This document shows, piece after piece, positions 27,645-32,022 of a stretch of 64,000 nt of DNA. This DNA comes from Arthrobacter sp. B3I9. Its GTDB lineage: Bacteria; Actinomycetota; Actinomycetes; Actinomycetales; Micrococcaceae. Under the pieces are notes generated by a model. It did not search any database. It was given only the letters and a program-made list of their open reading frames with translations, and was not told the DNA's origin. A program made the translations under genes and the position numbers. Position 1 is the stretch's first letter. Every line of letters starts with the position of its first letter. The stretch lies in assembly GCF_030816935.1 (NCBI RefSeq), contig NZ_JAUSYO010000001.1:3658001-3722000 (forward strand). The letters run 5' to 3'.

Positions 27645-28298
27645 ATGGCCAAAACCCCCGCACAGCGAATCAAGAAGCACGGCGCCAAGGCAGTCGTTCC
27701 GCAGCATGAGCTACCGCCGGTGATCAATCCCAGCACCAAACGGACGCCGCAGAAAGCGCAGAGCAACAGCAATCTGATCCTGATCGCGGGCGTCGTGGCC
27801 AGTCTGTTCCTGTTCTGGTACCTCCACCTGCTCACCCTGAACCAGCTCACCCAGCTTTCCGGCGGCCTGGCCATGCCGGATTCCCTGGTCGGCGGCTTCG
27901 ACCAGCGCTTCGTGGAGCAGCTGCGGACCGCGATGGATCAGGATGCCCGCGGCCAGCTCAATTACGTCCACAAGACGGCGGGCACACTCTTCCCGCTGAT
28001 TTTCGGCTTCAGCTGGCTGCTGTTGATCGGTACGAATGTGGCGCGCAAGTCCTGGCGCTGGGCGCTTTGGGCCATTCCGCTGGTTTTTGCCGCTGTGCGG
28101 CTGTGGGGCAATGCGACCATAGACGCCATGATGTCCGCCGAGACCGTCGACGCCGGCCAGGTGGCTCTCGCGTCCGGCCTCACCGTGGCCGGTTGGGTGC
28201 TACTGCTGCTCAGCCTCCTGGCCGGCGCCGCTGCGGTGTTCCTCGGCCGGAAGCCCGCGCCGTCCGCTGCCCAACCCGCGGGACATGCCCACCCGTAG
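27645..28298 (+). CDS. Four-helix membrane protein of unknown function
   Basis: 217 residues: a basic cytoplasmic N-terminus of about 45 residues, then four membrane helices near residues 46-66, 112-132, 140-158 and 178-200. Between helices 1 and 2 lies a soluble loop of about 45 residues with many charges. I do not recognise the family. The last residues (PAGHAHP) and the stop codon are encoded by the first unit of repeat cluster B, so the array has shaped the C-terminus. It is divergent from the inositol-phosphatase-like gene. Confidence 0.8.
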   Translation: MAKTPAQRIKKHGAKAVVPQHELPPVINPSTKRTPQKAQSNSNLILIAGVVASLFLFWYLHLLTLNQLTQLSGGLAMPDSLVGGFDQRFVEQLRTAMDQDARGQLNYVHKTAGTLFPLIFGFSWLLLIGTNVARKSWRWALWAIPLVFAAVRLWGNATIDAMMSAETVDAGQVALASGLTVAGWVLLLLSLLAGAAAVFLGRKPAPSAAQPAGHAHP

Positions 28299-28515
28299 CG
28301 CCACCACCACGGGACATGCCACCAGTAGCGCCACCACCACGGGACATGCCCACTCGTAGCAGTCAGCACCACGGGACATGCACAGTCCTTGTCCTCGCCA
28401 CTGGACATTATCCCGCTATGTCCATTCTTGGTGGGTTCCGGGGGGCATGTCCCCGTGGCGTAGCACCGCCCGGAGGACATGTCCATCCGTAGCGTCTGAG
28501 AGTGGGCATGTCCCC
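28280..28515 (+). repeat. Cluster B: eight degenerate repeats of about 30 bp with a GGGACATGC core
   Basis: Core words begin at 28280, 28311, 28341, 28373, 28403, 28443, 28475 and 28505. The period is 30-32 bases except one step of 40. Early units read GGGACATGCCCACCCGTAGC plus CGCCACCAC. Later ones invert the core to GGGCATGTCCCC. GGACATGTCC at 28475-28484 is a perfect palindrome. The array lies between convergent genes. Confidence 0.88.
28397..28431 (+). repeat. Second copy of the 35-bp inverted-repeat element
   Basis: It has the same TGGACAT-9-ATGTCCA inverted repeat as 26472-26506, in the same orientation and length. Differences are limited mainly to the 7-base centre. It is nested within repeat cluster B. 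Confidence 0.8.
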
Positions 28516-28561
28516 GCCTCGAAAGGGGCAGGCCCCGCCAAGAGAACGGGCCTAGCGGAGA

Positions 28562-29587
28562 TCAGCCCTCGGTAGAGAGGAGGTCCCTGGCCTGCGCAGC
28601 GCGTTGCTGGGCTCCGGCCGCTTCAAAGTGTTCGGCGGCATGTAGCAGATGGTCCCGCGCCGCGTCGCGGTTGCCTATCTTCAAGTGCGCACGGCCCAGC
28701 AGAAGACAGGCCTCGCCAAGGATTTGGGGTGACGGCTTATCCGGGTCCGCACGAATCTGGTCCAGAAGATCAATTGCTGCCTGCGCCTCTCCCGCCAGGA
28801 AGTTCCAGTGGGCCCGGTTCAGCTTCATCAGCAGGTAGTCGTTGGAACTTCCGCCGATGATGTCCGTGGCCAGCTCCGCACGTTCAATGCAGCGCAGGGT
28901 GTCCGCGTCGGCTACATCGGCCGCCAGCCGCATAGCCGCCGAGGCCTTGTTGAATTTTGCCCAGATATCGAGGTTTCTGGCGGGCGAAAGGGTTGCCGCG
29001 GCGAGCTCGTGGTAGTGCAGGCCTTCTTCCACCTTGTTGTAAAGGAAGGCGACGTTGCCGATGACCCAGTAGCCCTTGCCGGCCAGCTGATCGTCGACCT
29101 CTGTCTCGATAGCATCGGCCAAGCCGAGGCTTTCCGTCCAGGCCTCCTCCAGCCTCCCGCTGTCAGCCAACGCAGCGATTAGGGCCTGGCGCGCCTTCAC
29201 ATTCGTTTCGATCTCATTCTCGTCTGCGACCAGTGCCACCGCAGCGCGCGCCGCATCTGCGGCCTCTTCCAACGCACCCTCGCCTTGGCGGGCCATGGCC
29301 AGAAGGATGTATGCCTGGGCTTGGACGTGTGGTGCGTTGGTTGCAGCATGACCGCCGACCAGCGACGCTGCTATCGCTGCACAGGCAGCGAAATCCCCGG
29401 CGTCGAGGAGATTTTCTGCCTGCAGGAACGTCATCTTCCACCAGGAGTCCGCGTCTCCTTCGCTGAGGGCAATTTCCGCGGCACTGTGCGCGCTGACGGC
29501 TGCGTCGCTGAAGGCATGATTGGTCCGGTGCTCATAGGCCTGCAGTTCGGCGGTCGCGTAAAGCGGTGAAACGGTGTTCCTTGGCAT
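28562..29587 (-). CDS. TPR-type helical repeat protein without a DNA-binding domain
   Basis: 341 residues, nearly all alpha-helical. Paired helices of about 34 residues with small residues at TPR positions recur, for example EALEEAADAARAAVALVAD, VEEGLHYHELAAATL and LLGRAHLKIGNRDAARDHL. There is no HTH, signal peptide or membrane segment, so it is a cytoplasmic scaffold or peptide-binding protein. GATAAT lies seven bases before the ATG and there is no ribosome-binding site, which suggests a leaderless mRNA. It is divergent from a gene for a short secreted peptide, recalling Rap/Phr-type pairs in Firmicutes. That link is my inference. Confidence 0.8.
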   Translation of the reverse strand: MPRNTVSPLYATAELQAYEHRTNHAFSDAAVSAHSAAEIALSEGDADSWWKMTFLQAENLLDAGDFAACAAIAASLVGGHAATNAPHVQAQAYILLAMARQGEGALEEAADAARAAVALVADENEIETNVKARQALIAALADSGRLEEAWTESLGLADAIETEVDDQLAGKGYWVIGNVAFLYNKVEEGLHYHELAAATLSPARNLDIWAKFNKASAAMRLAADVADADTLRCIERAELATDIIGGSSNDYLLMKLNRAHWNFLAGEAQAAIDLLDQIRADPDKPSPQILGEACLLLGRAHLKIGNRDAARDHLLHAAEHFEAAGAQQRAAQARDLLSTEG

Positions 29588-29593
29588 GGGTCA

Positions 29594-29599
29594 ATTATC
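29594..29599 (-). promoter_or_regulatory. Candidate -10 box for a leaderless TPR-protein mRNA
   Basis: Minus-strand GATAAT (29599 to 29594) ends seven bases before the ATG, so transcription would start at or next to the start codon. The -35 region is weak (TTCATT, 18 bases upstream). The absence of any ribosome-binding sequence fits a leaderless transcript. Confidence 0.4.
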
Positions 29600-29731
29600 C
29601 GTCGTGCTAGAAGCGGAAATGAACAAAGCCCGCAAGCAGGAACAGTGAAGGACTTGCGCAGGACTGGCGCAGCCAACACAGGATCCGGTACAAAGGTCCC
29701 AATTGTTATCAAACAGAAGCGCACCCGCCCC

Positions 29732-29737
29732 TATACT
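29732..29737 (+). promoter_or_regulatory. Candidate -10 box of the secreted-peptide gene
   Basis: TATACT matches the sigma-70 -10 consensus at five of six positions and lies 48 bases before the peptide ATG. No -35 box at ideal spacing is visible (TTGTTA is 23 bases upstream), so an activator may be needed. Confidence 0.4.
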
Positions 29738-29785
29738 GGCGATGTACCCCTAGTCACAGCAGTCACTTACGTATCAGGAGCACTC

Positions 29786-29938
29786 ATGAAGAAATCAGTT
29801 GCAACACTCATCGTCGCCGGTGCACTGGCCGTTGCCGGCCTCTCCGCAACCTCTGCGATCTCCGCTAGCAGCGACAACGCCGGGCAGGGCTCTGTTCAGG
29901 CTGTTAACTGGTGGCCGAACTCGACTCCGAAGAACTAA
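29786..29938 (+). CDS. 50-residue secreted peptide with Trp-Trp motif, candidate signalling peptide
   Basis: The ATG has AGGAG seven bases upstream and the gene ends at a strong terminator, so it is a real single-gene transcript. Residues 1-3 are basic, 4-20 are hydrophobic, and small residues at 21-27 suit signal peptidase cleavage. The predicted mature part is about 23 residues: SSDNAGQGSVQAV, then NWWPNSTPKN. The adjacent tryptophans recall the WW motif of streptococcal XIP pheromones, which bind TPR-containing ComR. The neighbouring divergent gene encodes a TPR protein. A longer 97-residue reading from 29645 has no ribosome site and crosses the promoter. Confidence 0.75.
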   Translation: MKKSVATLIVAGALAVAGLSATSAISASSDNAGQGSVQAVNWWPNSTPKN

Positions 29939-29956
29939 CTGACGGAGCAAGCCGCG

Positions 29957-29998
29957 ACGGCGGGTACCGGGCCATTGGGTCCGGTACCCGCCGTTTTT
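29957..29998 (+). terminator. Strong Rho-independent terminator of the peptide gene
   Basis: Perfect 14-bp arms (29957-29970 ACGGCGGGTACCGG and 29981-29994) surround a 10-base loop and run straight into five T residues, then GCTTT. It also lies downstream of the convergent GGDEF-EAL gene. Confidence 0.92.
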
Positions 29999-30047
29999 GC
30001 TTTACTCCCGAACGAACACCGGCCGCCGGATGAGCGGACCGGCGGCG

Positions 30048-31571
30048 CTACCGCGCTTCGCTGATCATTTCCGCCAGTCTCGACGCCGGAACGGGCCGGC
30101 CGAAATAATAGCCTTGCCCGCTGGCGCAACCCAGCCGCGCCAGCTCTGAGGCCTGCTCTGCAGTCTCGATACCTTCGGCGACGGCCTTGAGCCCGCAGGC
30201 GTGAATGAGGTGGAGCACTGCCTCGACGAAGTTCCCCTGTTCCTCGTCACCGCCCAGCCCGTCGATCAGGCTGCGGTCGATCTTCACGACGTTGACGGGC
30301 AGCTTGCGCAGGTAGCTGATCGAGGAATAGCCGGTGCCGAAGTCGTCGATCTCCAGCTGAACCCCTAGCCGCCGGAGTCCGCTCAGGGAGTATCTGTCGA
30401 CGTCACCGCCGTTCACGGCCATGGACTCTGTCAGCTCCACGACGAGATTCGCAGCGTCAACCCCCGTTTCACGGAGGATGTCACGGACGTGTTCAATCAG
30501 GTCCAGATCTTGCAGCTCGGTTGTCGAGATGTTGACCCGTACGTTGAAGGTCGGATCCAGGTCCAGCTCCCGCTGCCAGTCCCGCAGCTGACGCACGGCG
30601 TTCTTCAGAACCCAGTGGCCGAGATCCAGGATCATGCCCGTCTCTTCGGCCAGCGGAATGAACTGGTCGGGCATGAGCAGGCCCCGGCTCGGGTGGTTCC
30701 ACCTCACTAGAGCCTCAACGCCTTCCATGCGGCCGGTCGCAAGCTCCACCACGGGCTGATAGTGCAGGGTGAGCTGGTCCTCGCGGATCGCTTCGCGCAT
30801 CTCACTGATCATCACGCTCTGAAGCCGGCGGGCATGCAACAGCGCGGGTTCGAACACCTTGACGCTGCTCTGCGGCTGGGCCTTGGCCGCATACATGGCG
30901 GTGTCGGCTTCCATCACCAGATCGTCAACCGACTGCCCGGGCTCGGCAACACGCACCCCGATGCTCGTGCCGCAGGTGATCCGGAGATCACCGACGTCGA
31001 CGGTCTCGCTGAGCGCTTTGAGAATCCTGTTGGCTACCCGGCGCGCCCGGACGAGGGTGGATTTGGGAAGCATGACGGCGAACTCGTCGCCGCCGAGGCG
31101 GGCCACGGTATCCGTCTCCCGTACCGAGTCCTGCAACCGTTTGGCAATAACCCGGAGGACGTCATCTCCCGCGCTGTGTCCCAGCGAGTCGTTGATGCCC
31201 TTGAACGAATCCAGATCGAGGATCAGCAGCGCCGGCGGCATTTCGCCCCGCGAGGTTTCCGCCAGGGCGTGGCTCAGCGCCGAGTTGAGGGCCGTCCGGT
31301 TGGCTAACTGCGTCAGCGGGTCGGTCAGCGCCATCCGCTCCAGCTCGACCTGGGCTTGGCGGAGCATCGCGGTGCGGCTCTCGACGCGCTCTTCCAGTTC
31401 CTGGTAGATGGTCTGCAGGTCGTCGGCCATCAGGTTGATGCCGGCGATGACGGCAGCGATGTCGTCGCGCGCTCCGGAGTGCGGGATCCTGGTGCTCAGG
31501 TCACCGCCGGCAATCCGGACAATACCCTCGACCAGGGCGTGCAGCCTGGGGTCAGGAGGATCAGTGCTCAC
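30048..31571 (-). CDS. Cyclic-di-GMP GGDEF-EAL dual-domain protein
   Basis: 507 residues. The N-terminus resembles a HAMP-like helical segment (residues 10-60) and a coiled coil, with no membrane helix. The diguanylate cyclase domain has the intact site RLGGDEFAVML, preceded five residues earlier by RETD, a good inhibitory I-site. The phosphodiesterase domain has EGVEALVRW, DDFGTGYSSISYL and GQGYYFGRP, so both activities could be functional. It should set cellular c-di-GMP. The GTG start overlaps the end of the STAS-like gene by 11 bases, so input may come from that protein. Confidence 0.93.
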   Translation of the reverse strand: MSTDPPDPRLHALVEGIVRIAGGDLSTRIPHSGARDDIAAVIAGINLMADDLQTIYQELEERVESRTAMLRQAQVELERMALTDPLTQLANRTALNSALSHALAETSRGEMPPALLILDLDSFKGINDSLGHSAGDDVLRVIAKRLQDSVRETDTVARLGGDEFAVMLPKSTLVRARRVANRILKALSETVDVGDLRITCGTSIGVRVAEPGQSVDDLVMEADTAMYAAKAQPQSSVKVFEPALLHARRLQSVMISEMREAIREDQLTLHYQPVVELATGRMEGVEALVRWNHPSRGLLMPDQFIPLAEETGMILDLGHWVLKNAVRQLRDWQRELDLDPTFNVRVNISTTELQDLDLIEHVRDILRETGVDAANLVVELTESMAVNGGDVDRYSLSGLRRLGVQLEIDDFGTGYSSISYLRKLPVNVVKIDRSLIDGLGGDEEQGNFVEAVLHLIHACGLKAVAEGIETAEQASELARLGCASGQGYYFGRPVPASRLAEMISEAR

Positions 31572-32022
31572 TCGCGTATTGCCCTAACCACTCGACAGCC
31601 GCTGCCTCCGACGTGAAGAACTGCGCAGGGACCTTCTCGGTTTTGGAGCGCAACAAGTAGTGGGCAATGACGCGGTCCACCGGGGTTTCACCCACCAGTG
31701 CGAAGGCGGAAGCGGCGATTGATGAAACGTAAACCTGCCGCGCCTCGACGCTGACGCCAAGCACTCCGGTGATGACGACCACTACCGGCACTCGCCTGCC
31801 ATTCGCGAGGGCACGGACGGCGGCCCCGGCAGCCCGCGCCTCGGCTCCCGCGATTTCCTCGTTCGGAGGCAGGGTGATTTGGATCATTCCGTTTTCCAGC
31901 GGGCGCACTCCGATGGGAGCAGCCTCACCGGACGCGGCATCGGGGGTACGGGCAGGGGCGACGGCGGACGCCGTGCGGTTGGGGAGGCGTTCTTCGGGCG
32001 TGGCCAGCGCTTCAACGGTCAT
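31561..32022 (-). CDS. STAS/SpoIIAA-like protein of unknown function
   Basis: 153 residues. A disordered Ala/Pro-rich N-terminus of 40 residues precedes an alpha/beta domain (ENGMIQITLPPNEEIAGAEA, VPVVVVITGVLGVSVEARQV, EWLGQYASEH) of the SpoIIAA/STAS-like type seen in actinobacteria. The conserved phospho-acceptor Ser of anti-sigma antagonists is not obvious. It overlaps the GGDEF-EAL gene by 11 bases, so the two proteins are made together and probably interact. The family call is from pattern recognition only. Confidence 0.7.
   Translation of the reverse strand: MTVEALATPEERLPNRTASAVAPARTPDAASGEAAPIGVRPLENGMIQITLPPNEEIAGAEARAAGAAVRALANGRRVPVVVVITGVLGVSVEARQVYVSSIAASAFALVGETPVDRVIAHYLLRSKTEKVPAQFFTSEAAAVEWLGQYASEH

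Follow-up and report, generated by a model that had tools for sequence, protein, structure and literature searches.

A TPR protein and a divergently encoded W-P peptide precursor as a candidate receptor and signal in Arthrobacter and related Micrococcaceae

Introduction

A gene for a TPR protein and a gene for a short peptide diverge from each other in the 64,000-nucleotide stretch of the Arthrobacter sp. B3I9 genome that was analysed here as a whole (the window). Do the two genes form a receptor and its signal, and, if they do, on what would the receptor act? Receptors in the cytoplasm for re-imported peptides have been described for Bacillota and their mobile elements. RRNPPA receptors are defined by a superhelix of 5-9 TPRs, and the text of the paper that says so, in which 13,513 bacterial genomes were searched, contains neither 'Actinobac' nor 'Actinomyc' (PMC9765709). 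In other papers, RRNPP is described for Firmicutes (PMC13220807), a detector was run on Firmicutes and viruses and the signals of Actinomycetota are typically enzyme-made small molecules (PMC10075063), and a paper that deals with Bacillota describes multi-copy Phr precursors (PMC11343458). The original prediction for this locus knew of no established equivalent in Arthrobacter-type bacteria, and we found none in the open-licence literature searched, which yielded no paper dealing with DUF7793, with the peptides described here or with RRNPP-type systems in Actinomycetota.

Results

Candidate receptor and peptide precursor in the window

The TPR gene (28562..29587, minus strand) encodes a protein of 341 amino acids, which its reading frame, Pfam, an AlphaFold2 model, its relatives and its clade mark as a candidate HTH-less TPR receptor. 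In the Pfam search every TPR match of this protein fell under the gathering cut-off, and HTH was unmatched. The model was a 17-helix TPR superhelix with a mean pLDDT of 90.4. These results agree with the original prediction of a TPR-only protein of 341 residues without HTH, and at the level of the fold the modelled protein would belong with the 5-9-TPR superhelices of RRNPPA receptors. TPR folds are widespread, and the top fold matches of the model were eukaryotic LGN; Rap and NprR were also matched. Residues 1-328 of the model aligned to residues 49-375 of RapI, so that the first 48 residues of RapI are without counterpart in this match. By sequence, no match to the TPR part of Rap, NprR or PlcR was obtained; Rap was compared among solved structures. 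Between the TPR gene and a membrane-protein gene, at 28280-28520 of the window, several short near-repeats around GGGACATG/GGCATGTCC were seen, and similar letters occur near 5190 of L119, the locus of the paralogue described below.

The peptide gene (29786..29938, plus strand) encodes a precursor of 50 amino acids with an export-signal-like start, one WWPN core and the C-terminal end AVNWWPNSTPKN. Its start codon lies 198 bp from that of the TPR gene, and the two open reading frames confirm the predicted arrangement, a signal-peptide-like 50-residue precursor divergent from a TPR gene. Export signals were assessed throughout from charge and hydropathy alone, without SignalP. Reading the DNA directly, we found a -10-like TATACT (29732..29737, plus strand) and an AGGAG ribosome-binding site (29776..29780, plus strand), and a terminator search gave an intrinsic terminator with an 18-pair stem (29956..29995, plus strand). 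A scan of 29500-30100 with the sigma-70 consensus returned no promoter and left TATACT unmatched; a TATACT/TATAAT-like box was seen in most HTH-less relatives whose upstream DNA was printed.

Compared with its relative in L006, the window's precursor (L004) had a pS of 0.43 and a pN of 0.045, which indicates that it evolves as a protein. Pooled over the 105 pairs among fifteen 50-aa precursors, pN/pS was 0.43. In the same pairs the value was 0.28 in the signal part and 0.63 in the last 11 residues; that is, the end of the precursor is its freer part.

Pairing of receptor and precursor among relatives

The same genome carries a paralogue, P0021 (L119, 3547-4815), with the same kind of TPR part and with HTH_31 and HTH_3 above the Pfam cut-off. 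The N-terminal HTH by which DNA-binding RRNPPA receptors are also recognized is present in P0021, and none was matched in the window receptor. In the model of P0021 the HTH had a pLDDT below 50, and its pose was left unused. The divergent precursor of P0021 has relatives in 197 of the 198 genomes of the genus.

A TPR relative of some kind was likewise found in 197 of these 198 genomes, and a copy of the window type in 118 of them (counted by hand, with at least 43% identity and above every HTH-type row); window-type loci from 85 of the 118 were taken for analysis. As a precursor we accepted a small divergent frame that starts with charged residues, has a hydrophobic stretch and contains [WYF]P. 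Of 272 receptor genes, counted with duplicate fetches and close relatives, 255 had such a frame upstream; 0.038 per 810 bp would be expected by chance, as estimated strand by strand from 2.02 Mb of background sequence in these loci. After 34 duplicate rows and one fragment were dropped, the set comprised 237 receptors, namely 140 with HTH and 97 without, the latter from the window's genus (85) and four other genera (12). The HTH-less type was called by tblastn with the first 62 residues of the paralogue, plus Pfam for two members; L300, whose alignment begins at HTH residue 1, was counted as HTH-type, and L144, a piece of 204 aa, was left out of the tree and the de-duplicated counts.

A divergent small WP precursor adjoined 95 of the 97 HTH-less receptors and 124 of the 140 HTH receptors; in clusters at 80% identity the numbers were 47 of 48 and 15 of 28. 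Thus, nearly every HTH-less receptor is paired, and the association is looser among the HTH receptors. Independent occurrence of the two genes in most relatives, the test set in the original prediction, was not what we found, and the functional pairing that it proposed is supported by this co-occurrence and by the other WP peptides, often tandemly repeated, that occupy the matching divergent position at paralogous receptors of the window's genome and of other genera. As in RRNPPA systems, the receptor gene is adjoined by the gene of a small propeptide, exported as judged by hydropathy. In one of the HTH-less exceptions (L077, genome G079) the precursor lies about 1.6 kb away with other frames between, perhaps because of an insertion, and the GGDEF-EAL gene described below is kept; in the other, in L289, the receptor lies 234 bp from the contig end.

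Two HTH-less receptor genes stand in tandem in L289, L290 and L292 (genus g31), and L290 and L292 also have two different WP precursors, as if whole pairs had been duplicated. Sixteen distinct HTH-type receptors had no adjoining WP precursor (L266-L268, L275, L277, L279, L281, L291, L293, L295, L296, L298-L302); they are either orphans or have precursors located elsewhere.

Conserved core of the peptides and residues of the receptors

Tandem copies behind an export signal are a familiar form of pheromone precursor. Distinct HTH-less precursors had 1-6 WP units, two or more in 39 of 95, and distinct HTH-branch precursors 1-8, two or more in 118 of 124. For example, the precursor of L067 has six GWWPN units, that of L271 eight G(D/N)WPH units, and that of the HTH paralogue in the window's genome three GNWPDPM units. 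W-P itself was required by the selection rule. No such requirement applied to the G at the second place before W, and in distinct precursors this G was found in 362 of 365 units of the HTH branch and 144 of 174 units of the HTH-less branch. The conserved core is W-P, and the residue before W may be W, N, Y, D, E, I or L.

In the receptors, W49, W50, W174, N178, H193, W209, F212, N213, R220, R258 and W261 were conserved in 92-100% of 76 representatives drawn from the two branches, and these residues probably face the concave groove. Receptor position 260 (H/R) was considered as a reader of the residue before W-P and rejected; it tracks the HTH-less/HTH clade, not the ligand.

An operator-like site in the HTH branch

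An inverted repeat, TTGACA-N28-TGTCAA, spans the peptide promoter of the HTH pairs. Among 124 distinct HTH pairs it was exact in 117, had two mismatches in 3 and four or more in 4; among the 95 HTH-less pairs none had it within two mismatches. When nine gap lengths were tried, exact matches appeared only with 28. Counted by clusters (80% identity, with adjacent peptide), the repeat was exact in 10 of 15 HTH clusters. This pattern fits a self-regulated peptide gene at which the receptor would bind. The window's genome has one exact site, at the paralogue's peptide promoter, and one-mismatch sites at three more places; set against one site for the reversed control pattern, these did not point to a wide regulon.

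Immediately ahead of the peptide gene's TATACT box, L029, L067, L069, L087 and other HTH-less loci have the palindrome GACACGGCGTGTC, which was found in none of 159 HTH regions within two mismatches. We rejected it as a site of the whole HTH-less clade: of 95 intergenic regions, 12 have it exactly and 23 within two mismatches, and the window lacks an exact copy, so that it is limited to part of the clade.

Clade and distribution

In a maximum-likelihood tree of the 76 representatives, for which the root is not shown and several long branches were flagged by the tool, all 48 HTH-less rows lay on one side of one branch (98/86). With a root among the HTH forms, this fits a single HTH loss. Of 295 family genomes searched with P0021, 144 had a receptor of one type or the other, and these came from 17 of the 32 genera; carriers named among the best 80 of 140 contigs were Arthrobacter, Pseudarthrobacter and Paenarthrobacter. 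P0021 had no match in plasmid or phage records, and carriage by such elements was set aside.

In an order-level sample of 297 genomes, 18 matched at E <= 1e-15. Three of these lay outside the family, all in one other family, and held four receptor loci with 26-31% receptor identity, two paired and two without a precursor by our rule. Both paired receptors had HTH above the Pfam cut-off; one precursor has three GGSWPT units (L325) and the other ends in DTWPA (L326). A sequence search for the peptides of this second family gave no convincing match, and the two were seen by their position beside the receptor. Before the precursor in L326, at 2755-2810, stands an inverted repeat CAACTTG...CAAGTTG, unlike TTGACA-N28-TGTCAA.

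Linkage of the HTH-less pairs to a c-di-GMP enzyme

Beyond the window's peptide gene lies a gene (30048..31571, minus strand) for a HAMP-GGDEF-EAL protein of 507 aa, with Pfam matches above the cut-offs and, as judged by eye, without a membrane segment. By its linkage, this soluble protein is a candidate for the output of the receptor. The DNA first fetched contained a GGDEF-EAL relative for 94 of the 97 HTH-less receptors, and in longer stretches (L308, L309) it followed the remaining three (L288 and two in L292) on the same strand at a distance of 4.6 to 6.1 kb. That is, GGDEF-EAL lies within about 6 kb of all 97 HTH-less receptors and of 0 of 140 HTH receptors, whose flanks were similar or longer. 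Two gene orders occur: the enzyme lies beyond the peptide, as in the window, for 56 receptors, and downstream of the receptor on the same strand for 38. In L104 the receptor and enzyme genes are 2 bp apart. The linkage was found in five genera (the window's, g8, g28, g31 and g32). The window's genome has seven EAL genes, and GGDEF-EAL relatives occur in 196 of the 198 genus genomes, many without an HTH-less receptor; the enzyme is thus not dependent on the receptor.

The gene start of the enzyme is overlapped by 11 bp by a gene (31561..32022, minus strand) for a SpoIIAA/STAS-like DUF7793 protein of 153 aa (PF25056), which has relatives. DUF7793 relatives were found in 49 HTH-less receptor rows and in 0 HTH rows, most window-type loci being too short to show them; by coordinates, 38 immediately preceded the enzyme gene, and the other 11 lay past a kinase gene on the opposite strand. 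On the other side of the pair, the membrane-protein gene (27645-28298) is syntenic in 53 of 80 loci and was in none of the printed loci with the second gene order.

A gene for a REC-GAF-HisKA-HATPase protein lies ahead of the pair in 32 loci (30 in the genus, two in g8); none was found adjoining the window's copy. In eight chosen genomes listed with the HTH type only, relatives of the kinase and the enzyme occur together and the pair is absent. The pair therefore seems to have entered, or to have been lost from, a c-di-GMP operon. An operon-like run of REC-GAF-histidine kinase, GGDEF-EAL and a second EAL protein was seen in L310-L317, which come from genomes listed with the HTH-type receptor only.

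Discussion

We consider it quite probable that the window's pair serves peptide-receptor signalling. The fuller statement, that the pair is the signal-and-receptor core of an RRNPP-like family of Micrococcaceae, we hold with moderate confidence, its output step being left open. The best reading of the sequences is that this family may have two outputs, transcription in the HTH branch and c-di-GMP in the HTH-less branch.

Sequence features, conservation and tandem copies suggest that the precursor leaves the cell and is cut down to a short peptide containing the W-P core. The peptide would be re-imported, probably via an oligopeptide permease; nine SBP_bac_5 proteins encoded in the window's genome would make import possible. 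It may then bind the concave face of the TPR protein, as the conserved residues suggest. In the HTH branch, the receptor would act at TTGACA-N28-TGTCAA over its own peptide promoter. In the HTH-less branch, the window included, the linkage points to a receptor that might contact the GGDEF-EAL enzyme, perhaps with DUF7793, and the peptide signal would thereby alter c-di-GMP. Direct control of c-di-GMP is a tentative view, somewhat short of an even chance. The same caution applies to the whole course of events, which we regard as possible rather than probable: a re-imported pheromone binds an HTH-less TPR receptor that gates the soluble enzyme by contact, and this receptor arose by one HTH loss from a transcriptional receptor as the pair joined the c-di-GMP operon.

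Peptide and receptor could be real and the target another protein, the c-di-GMP genes being mere neighbours. The near-ubiquity of GGDEF-EAL in the genus, with or without the receptor, and the window's gene order, which places the enzyme beyond the peptide and not behind the receptor, would suit this explanation. However, linkage in every HTH-less receptor and in no HTH receptor, with two gene orders in five genera, and the near-contiguous receptor and enzyme genes in part of the clade make it unlikely.

It is very improbable that the peptide has an extracellular role, such as that of an antimicrobial or surface peptide, with the TPR protein regulating it or protecting from it. Small precursors with cationic starts and tandem units would also suit exported bioactive peptides, and import is a proposed step; but no transporter or modification gene was noticed adjoining the pair, an HTH-branch peptide present in 197 of 198 genomes would be odd for a weapon, and the receptor residues are conserved together with the W-P core. 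We give equally little credence to the idea that the HTH-less protein tunes the HTH-bearing paralogue, whether as a decoy or as its dimer partner. Both types have the TPR domain, they are found together within single genomes, and the HTH-less protein would have lost the HTH while keeping the pocket. Against this, each receptor has its own, different peptide, the HTH-less receptors sit with GGDEF-EAL and without the operator, and G335 and G347 each give one match, to the TPR part only (at a cut-off of 1e-10, which would allow a remote HTH type). Inherited synteny of an ordinary exported peptide and an ordinary TPR gene without shared function, which the origin of most loci in one genus and the equally syntenic membrane-protein gene might suggest, is hardly credible, since paralogous loci with different gene neighbourhoods show the arrangement again, as do other genera and two of the four distant second-family loci.

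Returning to signalling with two outputs, we note that the loci share ancestry and that the neighbour at 27645-28298 is also syntenic (53/80), that clusters reduce the HTH pairs to 15 of 28 and the exact operator to 10 of 15, and that the precursor is under weaker constraint at its C-terminal end (0.63) than in the signal part; each of these weighs against it. If it is true, a whole soil genus would signal by ribosomal peptides, and synthetic peptides would allow an immediate test. The HTH-less branch would then offer a compact natural example of an output shifted from DNA to a second-messenger enzyme, and quorum sensing would be wired straight into c-di-GMP in Actinomycetota.

Among known systems, the TPR domain of LGN/Pins is alike in fold only; it is eukaryotic, has 13-14% identity and is without an exported ligand. 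From Rap-Phr of Bacillus, its phages and plasmids, the present pairs differ in the divergent precursor and the GGDEF-EAL linkage. Rap targets a response regulator, and no such target is known for the window receptor. ComR/XIP joins a TPR receptor to a Trp-rich short peptide with a WW motif. The likeness once proposed between that motif and the window's peptide is loose: the Trp-rich short peptide is shared, but the conserved core in the present family is W-P, and other residues can take the place of the first W. P0021 has no significant sequence match to RRNPPA receptors beyond the HTH (PlcR E 0.04, ComR E 0.4). It resembles the HTH-bearing ones (PlcR, NprR, ComR, Rgg, PrgX) in joining an HTH to a TPR superhelix, in the adjoining gene of a small precursor with predicted export and in the site over the peptide promoter; it differs from them in belonging to Actinomycetota, in the W-P core of its peptides and in that binding is predicted.
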